Source: Guyparkeria hydrothermalis (GTDB taxonomy: Bacteria; Pseudomonadota; Gammaproteobacteria; Halothiobacillales; Halothiobacillaceae). From it: a DNA stretch of 64,000 nt. The stretch is from positions 434,001-498,000 of the forward strand of contig NZ_JAJSED010000001.1 in the NCBI RefSeq assembly GCF_023555385.1, in the 5' to 3' direction. The translations under genes were made by a program, and so were the position numbers. This document shows, in pieces, positions 7,464 to 15,303 of the stretch (position 1 is its first letter; each line of letters begins with the position of its first letter). A model generated the notes under the pieces. The model worked only from the letters and a program-made list of their open reading frames with translations. It was not told the origin of the DNA and searched no databases.

Positions 7464-7589
7464 GCAGATGGATCGGGCCAGGTGGATATTGGAGGAAAAT
7501 AGACTACCGTCCGATGGGAAACCGCCATCGGCGGACATTGTCTGACAGCTTGGATCCCTTCATGCCCCGTGGTCGGGGAGGAGTACGCC

Positions 7590-8045
7590 ATGAAACGATC
7601 GATCTTTCCCCTTGCGGGCACGTTACTGCTCGCCTCCGGCTTAGTAGTGCCGTTGTCTGCCTCGGCGCAGCAAATGGGCGACGAAATGCGGGTCTACGGC
7701 AGTGAGTTGATGACGCAGCAGGAGCAGCTCGAGTACCGAGACCGTCTTCGGGAGGCGCAAACCCTGGAGGAACGTGAACGGATTCGGCAGGAACATCACG
7801 ATCGGATGCTGGACCGAGCCCGCGAGCGCGGCGTCGATCTGCCGGAAGCGCCGCCGCGCGGCGGGGCGGGCATGGGGTCCGGCGGCGGCATCCCCGGCGC
7901 CGGCTATGACGGCCGTGAGCGCATGGAACAGCAGCAGATGGAGCGTCGCGAGCGCACCCAGGAGCAAATGGAGCATCGTGACCGCATGCGTGATTCCAAT
8001 GGCGATTACCGGCGCAGCCCGGGCATGGGTGGCGGACGAAATTGA
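7590..8045 (+). CDS. Small exported Met/Gln/Arg-rich protein of unknown function
   Basis: This 151-residue protein starts at ATG 7590 with a strong GGGGAGGAG site upstream. A classic signal peptide (MKRSIF, then a Leu/Ala core ending SASAQQ) leads to a mature protein with YGSELMTQQEQLEYRDRL and ERIRQEHHDRM. I recognise this charged helical pattern from small hypothetical periplasmic proteins of gammaproteobacteria. A Gly/Pro-rich linker follows (about 95-115). The tail repeats ERMEQQQMERRERTQEQM-like helical units rich in Met, Arg and Gln. No enzyme motif is visible. The many Met and His residues could bind metal, but that is speculation. A clear intrinsic terminator follows, so the gene is probably transcribed alone. 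Confidence 0.7.
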   Translation: MKRSIFPLAGTLLLASGLVVPLSASAQQMGDEMRVYGSELMTQQEQLEYRDRLREAQTLEERERIRQEHHDRMLDRARERGVDLPEAPPRGGAGMGSGGGIPGAGYDGRERMEQQQMERRERTQEQMEHRDRMRDSNGDYRRSPGMGGGRN

Positions 8046-8115: not shown

Positions 8116-10377
8116 CTAGCCCGTGATGGGCGCCACATCGGGGTGAGATGGGGGCGAGTGACCGGTGGGGCTCGCCAGGGATCTGCCGAAGCGCGCCGCG
8201 TTGAGGATGACCGTTAGGGAGCTTGCCGCCATGGCGGTCGCGGCGATGACCGGCTGGATCGCGCCCGCCACGGCCAGTGTGAGGCCGATACCGTTGTACG
8301 CCACGGCGAAACCGAGATTCTGGCGCATCATGCGCCGTCCCTGCCGGGCAAGATCGATGGCACGACTTACCCCCGCCACGCCATCGTTGCCGAGCACCAC
8401 ATCAGCGGCCATGGCGGCCGTACTGTTGGCATTGGCAACCGCGATGCCGACATCGGCGCTCGCCAGGGCCAGCGCGTCGTTGGCGCCGTCGCCGACAAAG
8501 GCGACCGGCCCGGCCGTTGCGCGGACCAACTTTGCCTTGTCGTCGGGCAGACAGTCGGATCGGACATCGCTGGGCGCGAGGCCGACTGCCGTGGCGATGC
8601 GCATCGCCGGCACCCGACGATCACCGGTGATCAGCCCACAGGTAATTCCGGCTTGCTGCAACTGCCGGATGGTGGTTGTGGCCGAGTCGCGCAACGGGTC
8701 GTCGAACACGATCGTGGCCACCCACTGGTCGTTGATCGCGACCTCCACCTGCAGGTCATCGCCCGGAGTCGGCTCGATTTGAACGTCATGATCGCGCAGA
8801 AGTCGTGGCGATCCGACCAGCACTTGCCCCCAGTCGGGGTGGCTTGCCGATACGCCGGCTGCGTGGCGGCGCGCCTCCATGGCCGGCATCGGCGTGTCGC
8901 CCGCGGCTCGTCGCAGGGCATCCGCAATCACGTGATCGACGCCGTTTTCCGCCGCGGCGGCGATCTGAAGCACGGTTGCGGCGTCCGTCCGTCTCTTGCC
9001 GGGCAACTGTCCTCGCACCATCACGTCGGTGACCGCAGGCCGTCCCTGCGTGAGGGTGCCCGTCTTGTCGAGATAAAGGGTGTCCACGTCGGCCAGTTGC
9101 TCGAGTGCGGCCGCATCGCGAAAGAGAATGCCTTCGTTGGCCGCCCGACCTGCCAGGCTGACGTACGCGATCGGCACGGCAATGCTCAGCGCGCAGGGGC
9201 AGGCGATCACCAACACCGAGGTCGCGCGGAGCAGGGATTCTTCCGGCGACAGGCCGAGAAGCCACGCGGCGAGCGCCGAGAGGGTAGCGAGGCCGATTGC
9301 GGTCGGTGCGATCCAGCGGGCGAATCGGTCGGCGATTCGTTGCGTGCCCGGCCGGCTGCGGACCGCCTCGATCACCCGCTCCCCAATGCGATCGATCGAC
9401 CGTTCCCCGACTGTCGCCTCGACCCGGATGGTGATGGCACTCTCCAGATTGACGCTGCCCGCGAGCACCTTGTCGCCGGGATGAGCGGTTGCCGGTCGGG
9501 ACTCGCCGGTCATCACTGACCGGTCCAGGCGGGTCTCGCCGTCCTCGATCACGCCATCGAGAGGTATCCGCTGGCCGGCCGGGACGCGCATGTGCTCGCC
9601 GATGGCGATGGTCTCGGCCGGCACGGTCTCGATCGCGCCCTCGGCAGTGAGTCGCTCGGCGCGCTCCGGCATTCGGGCGTGGAGGGCGTCGATGGTCGTG
9701 GCAGCCCGTCGCAGGGCGAGCGTCTCCAGCAGCCGGCCGAGGGTCAGAAGCACCACCAGCATCACGGCCGTGTCGGTGTAGACGTGATGGCTACCCTGGC
9801 CGAGCTGCCAGATGGACAGGCCGGCAGCCGCCAGCACGCCGAGGGTGACCAGCGTATCCATCCCGGGGATGCCGGTGCGCAGCGTGCGCCAGCCGGCCAC
9901 AAATACGGGCAGACCGGCGATGCCCAGAACGGGCAGGGCGAACGAGGCGCTTGCCAGCGCGAGCCACCAGCCCGTGGTTTCGCCGCTCGCTTGTCCGACA
10001 CCGAGGTAGAGCAGCAGGGAGAACAGCATCGTCCAGACGCCGAAAAATCCCGCGACGGTCAGTCGGATGCCGAGTGCACGCACCTGCTCGTCGAGTCGGG
10101 AACGCGTGGTCCGCTCGCTACGCGGTGGTGCCAGTCGATAACCGAGCCGGCGGACCTTCTCGGCGATCTGGGCAAGGGAGATACGCTCCGGATCCCAGCG
10201 CAGCATGGCGGCGGAGCCCAGAAAGCTCACCTGGGCCTCCTGCACCCCCGGGGTGTCACGCAGCAGTCTTTCGGTGGCCGCCGCGCAACTGGGGCACCAC
10301 AGCCCCTCGATAGTCATCAGCGCCCTGCCGTGGGTTTCCGGTGACGGGGGGCAGGGGGCGGTTGCATCACTGATCAC
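8116..10377 (-). CDS. Copper-type P1B ATPase (CcoI/CopA-like), last gene of the oxidase operon
   Basis: This 753-residue transporter has an N-terminal HMA domain with a CPSC metal site (residues 28-31, in GLWCPSCA) and eight predicted helices. The ion-channel motif is CPC (IACPCALSIA). TGES is the phosphatase loop, DKTGTLTQG carries the phosphorylated aspartate, and GDGANDALAL is the hinge. CPC plus YNGIGL and SSLTVILNAARF at the C-terminus fit Cu(I) ATPases. Placement at the end of a cbb3-type oxidase operon suggests the CcoI role, exporting copper for assembly of the oxidase's CuB centre. The normally conserved HP dipeptide of the nucleotide domain reads HV (GVDHVIADAL). GTG 10377 was chosen as start because GGAG lies 9 bases upstream; ATG 10317 is the alternative. 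The reading frame continues open further upstream, but only as a shadow of the preceding cytochrome gene. Confidence 0.88.
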   Translation of the reverse strand: MISDATAPCPPSPETHGRALMTIEGLWCPSCAAATERLLRDTPGVQEAQVSFLGSAAMLRWDPERISLAQIAEKVRRLGYRLAPPRSERTTRSRLDEQVRALGIRLTVAGFFGVWTMLFSLLLYLGVGQASGETTGWWLALASASFALPVLGIAGLPVFVAGWRTLRTGIPGMDTLVTLGVLAAAGLSIWQLGQGSHHVYTDTAVMLVVLLTLGRLLETLALRRAATTIDALHARMPERAERLTAEGAIETVPAETIAIGEHMRVPAGQRIPLDGVIEDGETRLDRSVMTGESRPATAHPGDKVLAGSVNLESAITIRVEATVGERSIDRIGERVIEAVRSRPGTQRIADRFARWIAPTAIGLATLSALAAWLLGLSPEESLLRATSVLVIACPCALSIAVPIAYVSLAGRAANEGILFRDAAALEQLADVDTLYLDKTGTLTQGRPAVTDVMVRGQLPGKRRTDAATVLQIAAAAENGVDHVIADALRRAAGDTPMPAMEARRHAAGVSASHPDWGQVLVGSPRLLRDHDVQIEPTPGDDLQVEVAINDQWVATIVFDDPLRDSATTTIRQLQQAGITCGLITGDRRVPAMRIATAVGLAPSDVRSDCLPDDKAKLVRATAGPVAFVGDGANDALALASADVGIAVANANSTAAMAADVVLGNDGVAGVSRAIDLARQGRRMMRQNLGFAVAYNGIGLTLAVAGAIQPVIAATAMAASSLTVILNAARFGRSLASPTGHSPPSHPDVAPITG

Positions 10378-10450
10378 CTGAGCGATCTCCAGGGCCCGGT
10401 TTGAGCATGTCCGCGTACTGCGGCTGTGGTCTGGGTGGTGCGTTGCAGCC

Positions 10451-11611
10451 TCATGGCTGGGCGCTCGTCCGTGTCGGCAGATGTTTCTGCCGGAAGCGCT
10501 CCCACTGCGCCTGGTCGAATGACTCGCCGAGGAGCTTGCCTCGCAGGGTATGGCCGTAATAGCCCTTCTTGTCCTTGTGGTAGGCATCCCGCGCTTCGGC
10601 GACCGAGATATTCTCCTCGACCTGGCGCGGATCGGGGGGACGGGGAAAGCTGTTGATGTAGGCGGCCACGTCCCACGCTTCCTGGTCGCTGAGGTAGTTT
10701 CGTTTGCCCAGCGGCATGTTGGCCTTGATGAACTCGGCGGCAGTCGGAACACGGTGCATCCCGGCGCCCCAGTTGTAGGCGCCCGGTCCCCACAGTGGCG
10801 GAAAGACCTGGCGTCCGTTCAGGTCCTTCTGGCCCTGGCCATCGAGCCCGTGACACACCGCGCAGTTGGCTTTGAAAACCTTCTCGCCGCGGCGATAGTC
10901 GAAGCCCTTGTCGGTGCGCTCGAGCTTGGGGTAACTCCGGCCGGGCAGTTTCTGGCCGACTGGTGCGCCGTCGGCAAGCCAGAACATGTAGCTCTGCAGG
11001 TCCTTGTAGATCTGGTGGTTGGCAGGCGGCGGGCCGCCGTTGGGCGACTGCGGCGCGTTCATCGAGTAGGTGAAGCAGCCGCGGATTCGGTCCTCCATGG
11101 TATTGACCATGTCGTTCTTGCCGCGGTGCTTGGGGTAGACGCCCCAGGCCGCCCACAGCGGGGCGCTGCCCTGGCGGCGGCCGCTGTCCAGATGGCAGTT
11201 CGCGCAGGCGAGGTCATTGCCGGTGAATTCGGCTGCCCGGGTGCCCGTGTTCACGAACACGCTACGGCCGCGTCGGATCGCGTCGCCCATCTTTCCGTTG
11301 GGGATTTCCGAGTCGTCCGGCGGCACGAAGTGGTTATCGTTGCCCAATGGCACCTGGGGAAACGCGGCATCGCCGTTTTCCGCGAGCTCCTTGCGGCTCT
11401 CCGCCAACTGCTCGCGCGCCTCGCGAGAGGCCCGGTCCGCCAGGGTTGTGGGCGTTTCGTCGCTCGTGACGCTGGTGGACGTGAACGGCCAGACGTCGTA
11501 ATGATCGGCCAGGAGGCCTGCCCCAAGCAGGAGTCCCGCACCGGCGACGGCGAGGGCGATCCGCACTGCCGTGGACTGTCCCTCTTCGGGATTCTCGGTC
11601 TGCCGGGTCAT
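10451..11611 (-). CDS. TsdA-like membrane-anchored dihaem cytochrome c (thiosulfate dehydrogenase family)
   Basis: This 386-residue protein has one N-terminal helix (about 17-35) that looks like an uncleaved anchor, then a periplasmic dihaem part. Haem 1 binds at CANCH (136-140). GCFTYSMN places Cys179 where TsdA enzymes have the unusual axial cysteine. Haem 2 binds at CAVCH (250-254), with Met299 in KANMPLG as the probable sixth ligand. The MVNTMEDRIRGCFTYSMN region closely matches TsdA, which oxidises thiosulfate to tetrathionate or runs the reverse. The substrate here is inferred, not shown. The start overlaps the stop of the preceding dihaem gene (ATGA). In an oxidase operon it could feed electrons to CcoNO. 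Most TsdA proteins are soluble and exported, so the membrane anchor is notable. Confidence 0.82.
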   Translation of the reverse strand: MTRQTENPEEGQSTAVRIALAVAGAGLLLGAGLLADHYDVWPFTSTSVTSDETPTTLADRASREAREQLAESRKELAENGDAAFPQVPLGNDNHFVPPDDSEIPNGKMGDAIRRGRSVFVNTGTRAAEFTGNDLACANCHLDSGRRQGSAPLWAAWGVYPKHRGKNDMVNTMEDRIRGCFTYSMNAPQSPNGGPPPANHQIYKDLQSYMFWLADGAPVGQKLPGRSYPKLERTDKGFDYRRGEKVFKANCAVCHGLDGQGQKDLNGRQVFPPLWGPGAYNWGAGMHRVPTAAEFIKANMPLGKRNYLSDQEAWDVAAYINSFPRPPDPRQVEENISVAEARDAYHKDKKGYYGHTLRGKLLGESFDQAQWERFRQKHLPTRTSAQP

Positions 11612-12459
11612 CGCGCGTCCTCCTCTTGGGTGGGTTGCCCGCGTTCGGACGGACGATCGGGTGCGAGTGTGTTCGGTGCCAGCCGGTTCGGCTCCTGACG
11701 GGGCGGTCGGCTGGCGAGGTAGTCTGCTAGGGCTCGGCGATCGGCGTCGGAGAGCACCTTGGCGACGTCGTGCATGAAATCTTCCGGGTCGTTCTGCCGC
11801 CGACGGGTCGCGAACGCCACGAGCTGTTGATAGATGTATTCCGGATGCTGCCCAGCGATAGCCGGGAATGCCTGCCCGACACCCCAGCCGGCTGAACCAT
11901 GGCAGCTGTAACAGGCGGGCGCACCCGCCCGCCAGTCACCCTCCAGTGCCAGTTTTCGGCCGCGCTCGATTCGTCCCTCCAGAGAGGCCCCGGCCGGCGT
12001 GTCGAGGGTACGGTTGGCGTAATAGCGACCCAGGGCAGCCATCTCTTTGTCGGAGAGCGAGCGGGCCACGGAGGACATCGTGGCGTTTTCTCGCCGGCCG
12101 TCGGCGAAATCCTTCAGCTGTTTGGCGATGTAGCCCGCCGGTAAGCCGGCGAGTGCGGGAATGTGGTTGTTGCCCTCGCCATTCTCCCCATGACAGGAGG
12201 CACAGGCCCACGAACCCTCCGATCCGGTTACCAGCGGGCTGGCTGCGGCCGTCGAGACGTCGGTGGCACGTTCGGCCCATCGCACTGCGGCGAGCGGATC
12301 GATCTCGCTGCGTTCGCCCGATTGCGAGTGGGCGTTTGAATGGCCCTCCTCGCTCGAGCAGCCGCCAAGCAGGACCACGAACACAGCTGTGGCCATCCCA
12401 AACGCTAGTGGGCGGAATCGCCCGACGACAGTGGTCTGTGGTCGATGATGTGGGTTCAC
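11608..12459 (-). CDS. Dihaem c4-like cytochrome lipoprotein
   Basis: This protein of about 283 residues has a signal sequence ending in LLGGC (lipid-bearing Cys34). Two similar cytochrome c domains carry CASCH (86-90) and CYSCH (183-187). Each is followed by the NHIPALAG/QAFPAIAG and YIAKQLKDF/YIYQQLVAF patterns typical of cytochrome c4/c553 domains. A proline-rich tail follows. It is probably anchored in a membrane facing the periplasm and shuttles electrons between the TsdA-like enzyme and the oxidase. The GTG at 12459 was preferred because a GGAG lies 8 bases upstream; a GTG at 12465 is too close to that site. The 3' end overlaps the TsdA-like start by four bases. Confidence 0.85.
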   Translation of the reverse strand: MNPHHRPQTTVVGRFRPLAFGMATAVFVVLLGGCSSEEGHSNAHSQSGERSEIDPLAAVRWAERATDVSTAAASPLVTGSEGSWACASCHGENGEGNNHIPALAGLPAGYIAKQLKDFADGRRENATMSSVARSLSDKEMAALGRYYANRTLDTPAGASLEGRIERGRKLALEGDWRAGAPACYSCHGSAGWGVGQAFPAIAGQHPEYIYQQLVAFATRRRQNDPEDFMHDVAKVLSDADRRALADYLASRPPRQEPNRLAPNTLAPDRPSERGQPTQEEDAR

Positions 12460-12473
12460 GAGCACGTCTCCTG

Positions 12474-13136
12474 TCAGCGAGTGGTCGAGGTTGCGCGGGC
12501 ATCACTGGAGGAACCAGTCGACGAGGACCGATCCGCGGTGAGCAGGGCCGCGATGCCCCGATTGCCATCGAGCGGTGCGGTATCGTCGGCGAGTCGCTTT
12601 CGCACCTTGGCGACCTTGCTGGCGGTGATCGGCTCGGCATCGTTGCCCCAGGCCTGCCGGATGTAGGTAACCACCGCGGCAATCTCGGTGTCGCTGAGCG
12701 TCTTGCGGAAGGTCGGCATGCGACCGTTGTACGTCTCCCCCTTGACGACAAGTTGGCCGCTTACGCCCATCAGGACAATGCTGGCGGTGACGTCCGCCTG
12801 GCCGGTGACGAACGACGATCCGGCCAGGGGCGGGACGGCGCCCGACAGCCCGATGCCGTCTTCCTGATGGCAGGTCGCGCAGTTGGCATTGAAGACCGCC
12901 TGTCCGGGGGAGGCAGCCCCGGATCCGGCCTCCCGGCTCGCGGTTTGCTCGCTGGTCGGCGTGTTCGCAACCGCCGGAGCGTCGCTGTCCACGTTGAACA
13001 GGGTGAACGCGCCCCAGGCGGCCAGCGCGATGACCACCGAGTAGACCGGCCAGGGAATGCGCTTGTACGTCTCATACGGGATGAATGACTCGTCTCGGAC
13101 ACCCGCGATCGACTCGATGCGGCGTTTCTTGCTCAT
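12474..13136 (-). CDS. Membrane-anchored monohaem cytochrome c in place of CcoP
   Basis: This 220-residue protein has a cytoplasmic N-terminus, one transmembrane helix (about 29-47) and a periplasmic haem domain with CATCH at 86-90 and the probable axial Met140 in NGRMPTF. A basic, Ser/Thr-rich C-terminal tail follows. The N-terminal layout resembles CcoP, with basic residues and YETYKRIPWP before the helix, but CcoP has two haems and this protein only one. It sits directly after ccoO with an ATGA overlap and so is likely the third oxidase subunit or its bound electron donor. The domain resembles small class I cytochromes (IVLMGVSGQLVVKGETYNG). Confidence 0.82.
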   Translation of the reverse strand: MSKKRRIESIAGVRDESFIPYETYKRIPWPVYSVVIALAAWGAFTLFNVDSDAPAVANTPTSEQTASREAGSGAASPGQAVFNANCATCHQEDGIGLSGAVPPLAGSSFVTGQADVTASIVLMGVSGQLVVKGETYNGRMPTFRKTLSDTEIAAVVTYIRQAWGNDAEPITASKVAKVRKRLADDTAPLDGNRGIAALLTADRSSSTGSSSDARATSTTR

Positions 13137-13753
13137 GAGTCACCCCCGGAATTGCGGTAGCCGTTATCGCGAAGATCGCGTCGCACGGGCGGATAGCTGC
13201 GATCCAGGCTCAACAGGTAGGCCACCAGGTCGAGTGCTGCCTGCCGTGCGACTACCACCTTGCCGTCGGGTTTGAATTCATCCGGTACGCTTACCACGAC
13301 GTCGCCGCTCTCTGCCGAAGATTTGGTCTCGAACAGGAACGGGAAGGCCGGCATGATGCTGTCCGAGTGAAGGGAGCGTGGGGCGTAGAGATGTGTCAGT
13401 TGCCAGTCGCGCGACGGTTGTCTGACCCCGATGTTCAGCAAGTCGGGCCCGGTCCGCATCGTGCCGAGCTGATGCGGTCGGTCGTAGACGTAGTCCGCCG
13501 GCGTGGAGGCACGTCCCCATCCGCGGGTCTCGTCCGGGGCCTGTGCCGACGAGCGCGGCTGCTGCGAATGGCAGTAGACGCAGCCGAGGTTGACGTAGTG
13601 TGCCCGTCCCCGGAGCTCCGCCTTGGAGTAGGGCTCCAGTTCGTCGGGTGGCTCGATCGGCGCGATCTGCATGGCGGGTCCGATGACGAGAAACAGCATC
13701 GCCAGCGCCAGGATGGCGAGGGCGACGATACCGAGAGGAAGAAGTCGGTTCAT
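13133..13753 (-). CDS. ccoO: cbb3-type oxidase subunit II (CcoO), monohaem cytochrome
   Basis: This 206-residue protein has one N-terminal helix (about 5-27). The haem site CVYCH is at 58-62 in the CcoO pattern YVNLGCVYCHSQQ, and DYVYDRPHQLGTMRTGPDL and the axial Met134 in DSIMPAFPFL follow. These match CcoO, which passes electrons to the haems of CcoN. Its start overlaps the ccoN stop and its stop overlaps the next cytochrome start, both ATGA. It is slightly different from standard CcoO around the haem (RGWGRAS where RYG-S is usual), consistent with a divergent oxidase clade. Confidence 0.92.
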   Translation of the reverse strand: MNRLLPLGIVALAILALAMLFLVIGPAMQIAPIEPPDELEPYSKAELRGRAHYVNLGCVYCHSQQPRSSAQAPDETRGWGRASTPADYVYDRPHQLGTMRTGPDLLNIGVRQPSRDWQLTHLYAPRSLHSDSIMPAFPFLFETKSSAESGDVVVSVPDEFKPDGKVVVARQAALDLVAYLLSLDRSYPPVRRDLRDNGYRNSGGDS

Positions 13754-15303
13754 CGTCCTGTCCCTCCGTTAGCTCGTACGTTGGCGGTTGCCGCCGTTGC
13801 CGCCTCGTTGCGAGGCAGCAGGAACACGATGAGATGGAAGGCGAACAGGAGGTGCCCCAGGGTCATCAGGGTGCCGCCCACGGAGCGCGTGGTGAGGTAG
13901 GGCAGGGTTACGTGGACACTCTCCATGAATGGCCGGGCTGGATCGAGCATGGAGAGGCCCTGCAGCCACCCGCCTATCGTAAGGGCACCGACGTACAGCG
14001 TGATCCCCAGGGTGACCAGCCAGAAATGCCACGTGATCAGGGCCGGGAAGGGCCAACGCCGCCCTGTCAGGTGCGGAAGCATGTAGTAGATGGCGCCGAA
14101 CATGACCAGCGCGACGAAGCCGTACATGCCGAGATGCGCGTGACCCACCGTGTAATGGGTGAAGTGGGTGACGGTATTCACCGCACGGACGGCTTCGAGG
14201 GAGCCCTGCAGGGATACGATCGTATAGAGAATCGCGCCCAGGGCCACGAACCGCAGAGGAATACTCTCACGCCACGCCCAGCCATTGGTGAGGCTCAGGG
14301 TGTGCTGGTTGATCGCCACGGCCACGACCGGGACGACCATCATCACAGACTGCACCACGGAAAGGGTCACGGCCCAGGTTGGGATCGGCCCACCGACCAG
14401 GTGATGCAGTCCGACTTGGCTGTAGAACAGCGCCAGGGCCCAGAAGCCCAGTAGCGAAAGCCGGTAGGAGAAGATGGGTTTGCCGATGATGCGCGGGATG
14501 AAATAGTACGCGGCCGCGAGCCCGAGCGGGGTGGCCCACAGGCCGAGCACGTTGTGGGCATACCACCAGTTGACCGTCGCCGCCTGAGCGCCGGCGTAGA
14601 GCGACGGGACGTTCGCGGTGATGAACAGCACCGGGAACCAGAGCATCGAGGCACTGATGTACCAGCCCGAGACGTAGATGTGGTTGATCTGGCGGTGCTT
14701 GCCGGTCGCGAGAACCGAGATCCCGATCAGCAGCACCGAGACGGCCAGTGCGATGTCGATCTGCCAGGGAAATTCCAGCCATTCCATGCCGTCGGTCCAA
14801 CCGGAGCCGATCGCGATCACGCCGGCGGCGGTGGCGAGGTTCCACAGCACGCCACCCGAGAGGGCCGCCCCGGGATGCCGCAGGCGTGTGCGGAACAAGG
14901 TCGGGATGAGCCAGAGTGCGGTGCCGAGTGCCGCAAGCGAGGTCCAGCCGTAGACGACACTGTTGAGGTGCATGGTGCGCATGCGGCCGAACGTCAGTGG
15001 CGCACTGCCGTCCAGCAGGCCCGGGATATGGAGTTTGAGCGAGGAGATCAGCCCGAATGCGGAGCCGACCACGAGCCAGGTCACGGCCGTAACGAAAAAG
15101 AACAGGATCAATCGTTGCTCGGGTGGCCCGAACGAGTTTTCCCCAACGGTCGTTTGTTCGTTCTCGCCTTCCGGGAGGATCGAGCGGGCCTGATCCTGCG
15201 AGATATCGAACTGGTTTGAATAGATAGCCCAGATCAGAGCGATGATCGCGATCAGCGACATCACGAAACTGAAGGCCAGCAATGAGCCGATGGAATAGAG
15301 CAT
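13750..15303 (-). CDS. ccoN: cbb3-type oxidase catalytic subunit I (CcoN) with CcoS-like N-terminal extension
   Basis: At 517 residues it has about 13 predicted helices. Active-site residues fit the cbb3 (C-family) pattern: His112 for the low-spin haem, CuB ligands His250 (WWYAHN), His300 and His301 (GLHHLVGGPIP), and haem histidines in VGHAHLGMYG (388, 390). Tyr294 sits six residues before His300, as the cross-linked tyrosine does in known cbb3 enzymes, so this is an oxygen reductase rather than a nitric oxide reductase. The first 45 residues form a helix followed by WAIYSNQFDISQDQARSIL, resembling the separate assembly protein CcoS. The ATG at 15303 has GAGGGG 10 bases upstream. It is the first gene of the operon. 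No ccoP or ccoQ follows. Confidence 0.93.
   Translation of the reverse strand: MLYSIGSLLAFSFVMSLIAIIALIWAIYSNQFDISQDQARSILPEGENEQTTVGENSFGPPEQRLILFFFVTAVTWLVVGSAFGLISSLKLHIPGLLDGSAPLTFGRMRTMHLNSVVYGWTSLAALGTALWLIPTLFRTRLRHPGAALSGGVLWNLATAAGVIAIGSGWTDGMEWLEFPWQIDIALAVSVLLIGISVLATGKHRQINHIYVSGWYISASMLWFPVLFITANVPSLYAGAQAATVNWWYAHNVLGLWATPLGLAAAYYFIPRIIGKPIFSYRLSLLGFWALALFYSQVGLHHLVGGPIPTWAVTLSVVQSVMMVVPVVAVAINQHTLSLTNGWAWRESIPLRFVALGAILYTIVSLQGSLEAVRAVNTVTHFTHYTVGHAHLGMYGFVALVMFGAIYYMLPHLTGRRWPFPALITWHFWLVTLGITLYVGALTIGGWLQGLSMLDPARPFMESVHVTLPYLTTRSVGGTLMTLGHLLFAFHLIVFLLPRNEAATAATANVRANGGTGR

Follow-up and report, generated by a model that had tools for sequence, protein, structure and literature searches.

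The closest described relatives of the system analyzed here are the thiosulfate dehydrogenase TsdA with its partner TsdB, known from A. vinosum (TsdA) and M. purpuratum (TsdBA), and the canonical cbb3 oxidase CcoNOQP (3mk7). In TsdA, an S-thiosulfonate intermediate is reported to form on the haem-1 cysteine (PMC4423706), and structure 5LO9 of M. purpuratum serves as the TsdB structure in PMC9237845, MpTsdBA being described as a fusion in abstract and legend text. Donation of electrons by TsdB to a cbb3 oxidase is an earlier proposal repeated in the same source (PMC9237845), and the electron path from TsdA to O2 has so far been covered only by this proposed route. Here, a window of 64,000 nucleotides of the Guyparkeria hydrothermalis genome (positions 434,001 to 498,000 of contig NZ_JAJSED010000001.1) was analyzed, which contains an operon of six genes encoding a divergent cbb3-type oxidase, cytochromes c including TsdA and a TsdB-like protein, and a P-type ATPase. 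We consider it likely that this operon specifies a dedicated thiosulfate:oxygen respiratory module, because gene content, gene order, conserved residues, correlated divergence and the sulfur-gene context in many relatives all point in this direction. Among the mainly non-subscription literature searched, with little of the search aimed at SorAB, no paper on a ccoNO-tsdBA or ccoNO-sorAB operon was found.

The genes and gene parts of the operon, in window coordinates and in the order of transcription, are as follows (aa, amino acids).

13750 to 15303, minus strand: CcoN-like catalytic subunit of a divergent cbb3-type oxidase, 517 aa, COX1 match of 266 bits.
15175 to 15291, minus strand: FixS/CcoS-like segment fused to the CcoN N-terminus (aa 5-43), PF03597 match of 28.1 bits (cut-off 23.1).
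13133 to 13753, minus strand: CcoO-like monohaem subunit, 206 aa, PF02433 (FixO) match of 112 bits.
12474 to 13136, minus strand: membrane-anchored monohaem cytochrome c, 220 aa, one CxxCH motif and a hydrophobic segment at aa 29.
11608 to 12465, minus strand: TsdB-like dihaem c4 lipoprotein, 285 aa, two CxxCH motifs and a lipobox-like motif at aa 33.
10451 to 11611, minus strand: TsdA of the thiosulfate dehydrogenase family with a probable N-terminal anchor, 386 aa, matching 5lo9 and 4wqc.
11075 to 11077, minus strand: codon of Cys179, aligned pairwise to the haem-1 cysteine ligand of TsdA.
8116 to 10317, minus strand: P1B-type heavy-metal ATPase, probably for copper (CcoI/CopA-like), with a TIGR01511 match, an HMA domain and CPSC, CPC and DKTGT motifs.

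A first-pass annotation had described six genes on one strand between 8116 and 15303 in this order, and the list of open reading frames (ORFs) confirms this, all six lying on the minus strand. It had also held that four of the five junctions are overlaps or gaps of fewer than 20 bases, which agrees with the 4-base overlaps measured at the CcoN/CcoO, CcoO/cytochrome and c4/TsdA junctions and the gap of 8 bases between the cytochrome and c4 genes. The TsdA/ATPase junction is the longest: the ATPase ORF as called mechanically starts at 10752 inside tsdA, and the in-frame starts nearest the HMA domain, GTG at 10377 and ATG at 10317, leave gaps of about 73 and 133 bases, respectively. The protein identities assigned at first pass (CcoN, CcoO, monohaem and c4-like cytochromes, TsdA-like protein and CcoI/CopA-like ATPase) are in accordance with profile and pairwise matches, and its statement that CcoP and CcoQ are missing holds as well, profile searches finding neither among the six operon genes; membership in canonical CcoNOQP is therefore not claimed. 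The FixS/CcoS segment of CcoN had gone unnoticed at first pass. The source genome, a single contig of 2.39 Mb, has three COX1 matches, two of which match the operon CcoN, one at 2222032 with a P-ATPase match at 2228169, and two FixS matches, one separate at 89656 and one being the segment fused to the operon CcoN. A single TsdA match was found in this genome at E ≤ 1e-40, and the same six genes are present in two further genomes of the genus. Guyparkeria B1-1 and SCN-R1 are noted in PMC9032823 to have a tsdA homologue, its function being left open, and G. halophila and G. hydrothermalis are said there to be without one and to show no tetrathionate intermediate. For SCN-R1, cbb3 and ba3 oxidases are given in PMC6504805, the text of which does not mention TsdA.

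CcoN and CcoO, judged by their sequences, are assigned to the cbb3-type (C-family) haem-copper oxidases. CcoN matches 3mk7 in pairwise comparison with an E value of 1.2e-64, scores 264.7 bits against TIGR00780 (ccoN), below the equivalog cut-off of 583, and shares 31-38% identity with matches outside its own subfamily. The roles of the CcoN residues discussed here (His ligands, Tyr251, Glu323 and His243) we take to be those of P. stutzeri CcoN. The His ligands of haem b, haem b3 and CuB are kept in all 91 CcoN copies of the subfamily, including 76/76 that are linked to tsdA, as is the Tyr aligned to Tyr251 (Tyr294 in the window). These ligands, the Tyr, the homology of CcoN and CcoO, the CcoI-like ATPase and the presence of CcoS are shared with canonical cbb3 oxidases, whereas the operon differs from them by the lack of CcoP and CcoQ, the fusion of CcoS to CcoN and a separate CcoN clade. 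Furthermore, the Glu323 position, near haem b3, is occupied by Gln in the window and in 85/91 subfamily copies (Glu in the other six), the His243 position is Gly in 91/91, and 20 alignment columns distinguish the subfamily from a comparison set of 17 rows, which includes L022, a wrong ORF, and L014, a member of a third clade. In these rows the Glu323 position is Glu in 15, Gln in L014 and Arg in L022. The first 45 residues of CcoN, the part matched by FixS in the window, occur in 74/76 linked copies, 12/15 unlinked copies and 1/17 comparison rows, the last being again the wrong ORF L022. The P-ATPase passes both the copper model TIGR01511 (422.9 bits, cut-off 397) and the cadmium model TIGR01512 (360.6 bits, cut-off 313.5), and since the copper model outscores the cadmium model its metal is probably copper. 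The cbb3 oxidases are said to fall into proximal and distal subtrees, a split differing in subunit composition that reportedly goes back to Ducluzeau et al. in 2008. In Sideroxydans ES-1, distal ccoNO is reported to be upregulated on thiosulfate (PMC8788666).

TsdA of the operon matches 5lo9 with an E value of 1.3e-83 and A. vinosum TsdA (4wqc) with 2e-52 in pairwise comparison; its match to the SoxA/TsdA domain PF21342, at 26.6 bits, lies just below the 27-bit cut-off. It carries two CxxCH motifs and the haem-1 cysteine (Cys179), which is found in 74/74 aligned oxidase-linked TsdAs, the second CxxCH being found in 73/74. As in the described TsdBA systems, a dihaem c4-type cytochrome, the mark of TsdB, is encoded directly upstream of tsdA, each protein has two haems and haem 1 has a Cys ligand. 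This c4 lipoprotein matches the N-terminal part of 5lo9 (9e-27) and cytochrome c4 (1.3e-24), and its Met130 and Met231 are invariant among seven aligned sequences. The operon TsdA differs from known ones by its longer N-terminus, its own clade and its setting in an oxidase operon. A hydrophobic segment starts at aa 16 of the window TsdA, and such a segment exceeds a simple threshold in 62/76 linked TsdAs; a lipobox was found in none of the 76. By eye, short Sec-type leaders are seen on most standalone TsdAs and are absent from the linked examples displayed, and an AxA signal-cleavage test (positive in 21/76 linked and 6/17 standalone TsdAs) did not separate the two sets. Taken together, TsdA of the operon is probably anchored in the membrane by its N-terminus. 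The anchored monohaem cytochrome gave a partial match to TIGR00782 (ccoP; 43.6 bits, cut-off 180) and is a candidate replacement of part of CcoP.

A CcoN scan for relatives gave 321 loci, the best 80 of which were kept and, together with the window, comprise 82 CcoN copies (locus L047 has two). tsdA lies downstream of CcoN in 74 of these 82 copies and is lacking in eight, two of which run off their contig; on this basis, a gene arrangement that is due to chance or restricted to the genus was rejected. With nine further loci, tsdA is linked in 76/91 copies. Alpha-, beta- and gammaproteobacteria all have members with the operon gene set, and plasmids L126 and L128 also carry linked oxidase and tsdA genes. 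Three solutions occupy the place of CcoP in the 76 linked copies: a separate anchored cytochrome and TsdB in 17 (11 gammaproteobacterial, four alphaproteobacterial and two without class, the window included in the 17), both as one trihaem protein in 41 (38 alphaproteobacterial) and an anchored dihaem TsdB alone in 18 (16 betaproteobacterial).

The linked CcoN copies form a clade with a Shimodaira-Hasegawa-like approximate likelihood ratio test (SH-aLRT) support of 95, in which 69 of 75 rows are linked, in a tree with very long outgroup branches for which identical rows were dropped (69 of the 76 linked copies kept). A second tree, built from 48 of the 91 copies, chosen by hand, and from others, gave a support of 100 with 36/39 rows linked; a further CcoN tree retains the wrong-ORF row L022. 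The linked TsdAs (67 of 76 kept after removal of identical rows) likewise form a clade, with an SH-aLRT of 99 and 71 rows, of which 67 are linked, and 16 of 20 other TsdAs fall outside. The four unlinked members are L133, L134 and the plasmid-borne L122 and L127. Moreover, the distances of CcoN and TsdA were correlated (Mantel r = 0.84, n = 69 of the 76 linked copies after removal of identical CcoN rows, none of 2000 permutations as high), a value calculated with no control for the species tree; comparison CcoN rows were left out of this analysis because they included wrong ORFs. The simplest reading of these trees is a single joining of tsdBA to the divergent oxidase, followed by spread and some loss.

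Several loci deviate from this arrangement. In L133 (about 11300-13000), a ccoN lacking its middle part stands beside TsdA and looks like decay or an assembly fault, and in L134 (6622-8874) a TsdA of the oxidase clade and a trihaem cytochrome occur with no oxidase adjoining. Marinobacter aromaticivorans (L047, 1792-17127) has two adjacent oxidase versions, of which only one is accompanied by TsdBA. A second trihaem cytochrome and a divergent TsdA-like gene (30-35% identity) lie upstream of the oxidase in L061, L063, L064, L066, L071-L073, L082, L083 and L107. A stretch of 21.5 kb that includes the operon is shared at 100% identity by records of Pigmentiphaga, Pseudomonas and Cupriavidus (L109, L111 and L112, 1-21545), and an Achromobacter record (L110) shows the same stretch at 100% identity in two blocks; this represents either a very recent transfer between classes or a contamination common to these records.

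The surroundings of the operon in its relatives are in line with a sulfur-related function: 47 of 81 loci have at least one SoxB-like, DsbD, TlpA, DsbG, MBL, DsrE or ArsR/BigR-like neighbour, with counts of 29 for DsbD, 28 for TlpA, 20 for SoxB-like, 17 for ArsR/BigR-like, 14 for DsbG, 13 for MBL and 12 for DsrE proteins. Among representatives of these families, DsbD and DsbG scored over their cut-offs and the others under them, SoxB-like proteins reaching 312 bits (cut-off 550). A histidine kinase is found near 33/81 loci and a response regulator near 31/81. In Pelagerythrobacter (L057), the order is SoxB-like, one gene, solute-binding protein, ccoN, ccoO, trihaem cytochrome, tsdA, ATPase and SoxB-like, and this cassette can be compared with a cluster of Erythrobacter flavus 21-3 (D0Y83_01340-01450) reported to rise with thiosulfate, in which TsdB is proposed at 01390 and deletion of tsdA (01395) left thiosulfate constant and tetrathionate undetected (PMC7608252). 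As in L057, the cluster has TsdB, TsdA, one gene and SoxB in a row; the order fits tags 01365-01405, with poorer agreement on the left side of the cluster. To judge from gene order alone, tags 01380, 01385 and 01400 would be ccoN, ccoO and the ATPase, and if this is the same operon, the ΔtsdA phenotype would be direct support for a thiosulfate module. The word "oxidase" is absent from the main text of PMC7608252, and a text search for oxidase terms in PMC9426585, PMC12172448 and PMC10086054 (E. flavus/Halothiobacillus) and in PMC13038864 (Bordetella) returned nothing of use.

The suggestion made at first pass that thiosulfate oxidation may be coupled to O2 reduction, for which a lack of conserved gene order in relatives had been named beforehand as one possible refutation, gains support from the conserved order (tsdA downstream in 74/82 best copies), the catalytic residues, the correlated distances and the sulfur and thiol-redox neighbours of 47/81 loci. 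Following this, we propose that anchored TsdA would form tetrathionate from two thiosulfates by oxidation at its Cys-ligated haem 1, and that electrons would pass from TsdA haem 2 via the TsdB-like lipoprotein and the anchored monohaem cytochrome to CcoO, the lipoprotein and the cytochrome together occupying the place of the missing CcoP. From CcoO the electrons would reach the divergent CcoN, whose b/b3-CuB centre would reduce O2 to water, and the P-ATPase, presumably supplying copper, and the fused CcoS segment would serve oxidase assembly. The direction of the reaction, the electron path, energy conservation and physical association are all inferred from sequence.

Related clades of the divergent oxidase point to a wider pattern. 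In seven loci (L159, 8848-12866; L161; L163-L167), sorAB, encoding a sulfite dehydrogenase, replaces tsdBA in the oxidase operon; two of these, L159 and L161, are plasmid records, and L165 has SCO and no ATPase. SorAB (2blf) is a different enzyme with a different substrate and is not present in the window; SorA reached 572 bits (cut-off 600) and SorB 67 bits (cut-off 93), with an E value of 6e-133 for SorA against 2blf. A version with SCO and a conserved small protein without Pfam match was observed in L136, L137, L138, L160 and L168-L177, with NnrS near L136, L137 and L173. The seven sorAB-type CcoN copies form one clade (SH-aLRT 99) and 13 of 14 SCO-type copies another (SH-aLRT 100). In a sample of the betaproteobacterial family of genome G539, the oxidase was found in 17/249 genomes, 11 with SCO and the small protein, five with sorAB and one with tsdBA. 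Tentatively, and stopping just short of favouring it, we put forward a distinct family of donor-dedicated cbb3 oxidases (CcoS-CcoN fusion, CcoO and anchored cytochrome, no CcoP or CcoQ), one clade of which would be wired to TsdBA and another to SorAB as membrane-anchored sulfur-oxyanion:O2 supercomplexes, independent of the quinone pool and bc1 and spread between classes by horizontal transfer. With both ends of the route joined in an operon in three proteobacterial classes, and with a SorAB parallel, the route can be tested by removing genes one at a time, and structural studies gain a compact sulfur-oxyanion:O2 system from nature. Metagenome counts of tsdA or ccoN can, moreover, conceal a coupled module. 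As a separate observation, TsdA is encoded about 460 bases upstream of canonical ccoNO in the unrelated genome G039 (L140, 7470-10322), possibly a second, independent association.

Several points weigh against a dedicated thiosulfate:oxygen module. The flanks of the operon in the window, in the stretch examined, show none of the sulfur and thiol neighbours seen elsewhere, and the source genome has one SoxB over the cut-off, so that the Tsd share of sulfur flux may be minor. TsdA can also work as a tetrathionate reductase (PMC5146829). With Gln in place of Glu323 and Gly in place of His243, CcoN may handle protons differently from canonical cbb3 oxidases. TsdA is not a constant partner of the oxidase core: related clades lack tsdA, and only one of the 17 betaproteobacterial carriers has tsdBA. 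The linkage figure of 74/82 is biased upward, because the 80 loci were selected as the closest among 321 matches to window-like CcoNs, and near-identical loci were counted singly. In genome samples, where few candidates were scored per genome and misses are possible, the divergent CcoN was found in 5/274 genomes of the class and 5/398 of the phylum, compared to TsdA in 34/274 and 35/398, nearly always without the divergent oxidase; CcoN and tsdA were linked in two of the five class carriers, both of the window's genus, and in one of the five phylum carriers, the window's genome. One more genome of the phylum sample, G358 (L133), has the operon with the damaged ccoN. The divergent CcoN module is uncommon; in the family of Pelagerythrobacter L057, the oxidase was found in 2/149 genomes, one being the genome of L057 itself.

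Among the alternatives, the one that survives best is that TsdBA feeds the periplasmic cytochrome c pool as a whole, with a divergent oxidase that is merely co-expressed and takes electrons from any donor. All 12 tsdA loci picked from the genome samples (L141-L152) lack a CcoN match in the 14-17 kb taken, and 10 of 11 SCO-type relatives lack an adjacent dehydrogenase match, the eleventh (L168) having a weak SorA-like match of 29% some 8 kb away, as might be expected of such loose coupling. However, the separate CcoN and TsdA clades with correlated distances, the fusion of the cytochrome with TsdB, the probable TsdA anchor and the separate association of the oxidase with SorAB speak for dedicated partners, and we regard the pool explanation as possible, if rather doubtful. 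Alternatively, the operon might serve recycling or detoxification, with TsdA acting as tetrathionate reductase or thiosulfate remover and the oxidase as a sulfide-tolerant alternative. Bifunctional TsdAs exist (PMC5146829), and thiol-disulfide and MBL genes adjoin many loci, but a tetrathionate reductase would compete with its O2-reducing partner and tsdA of E. flavus, if part of the same operon, oxidizes thiosulfate (PMC7608252), which makes this function unlikely.

It is still less probable that the CcoN-like subunit belongs to a nitric oxide reductase or to some other haem-copper enzyme that is not an oxidase, despite its 31-38% identity outside the subfamily, the Gln at the Glu323 position and NnrS adjoining two SCO-type relatives. 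NorB structures match it far more weakly (8.2e-7) than 3mk7 does (1.2e-64), all His ligands are kept, and the active-site Tyr is present in 91/91 copies; nitric oxide reductases are not known to have this Tyr, and on this ground the assignment was rejected. Finally, that the TsdA-like protein does no more than carry electrons to the oxidase, as does CccC of Campylobacter jejuni, is highly improbable and was rejected, because in CccC-type proteins the haem-1 Cys is reported to be replaced by Met (PMC5146829), and this Cys is kept in 74/74 aligned linked TsdAs. A thiosulfate-oxidizing TsdA wired to an O2-reducing cbb3-type oxidase remains our preferred reading of the operon.

Two minor observations concern the surroundings of the operon and its occurrence outside bacterial records. 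A 158-aa ORF at 7569-8045 on the plus strand, convergent to the operon, has a signal-like N-terminus and no Pfam or NCBIfam match. In a phage collection, one CcoN match (29.7%) was found near the end of the Pseudomonas phage Ostro record (L162, 1198-2625), which is possibly host DNA.

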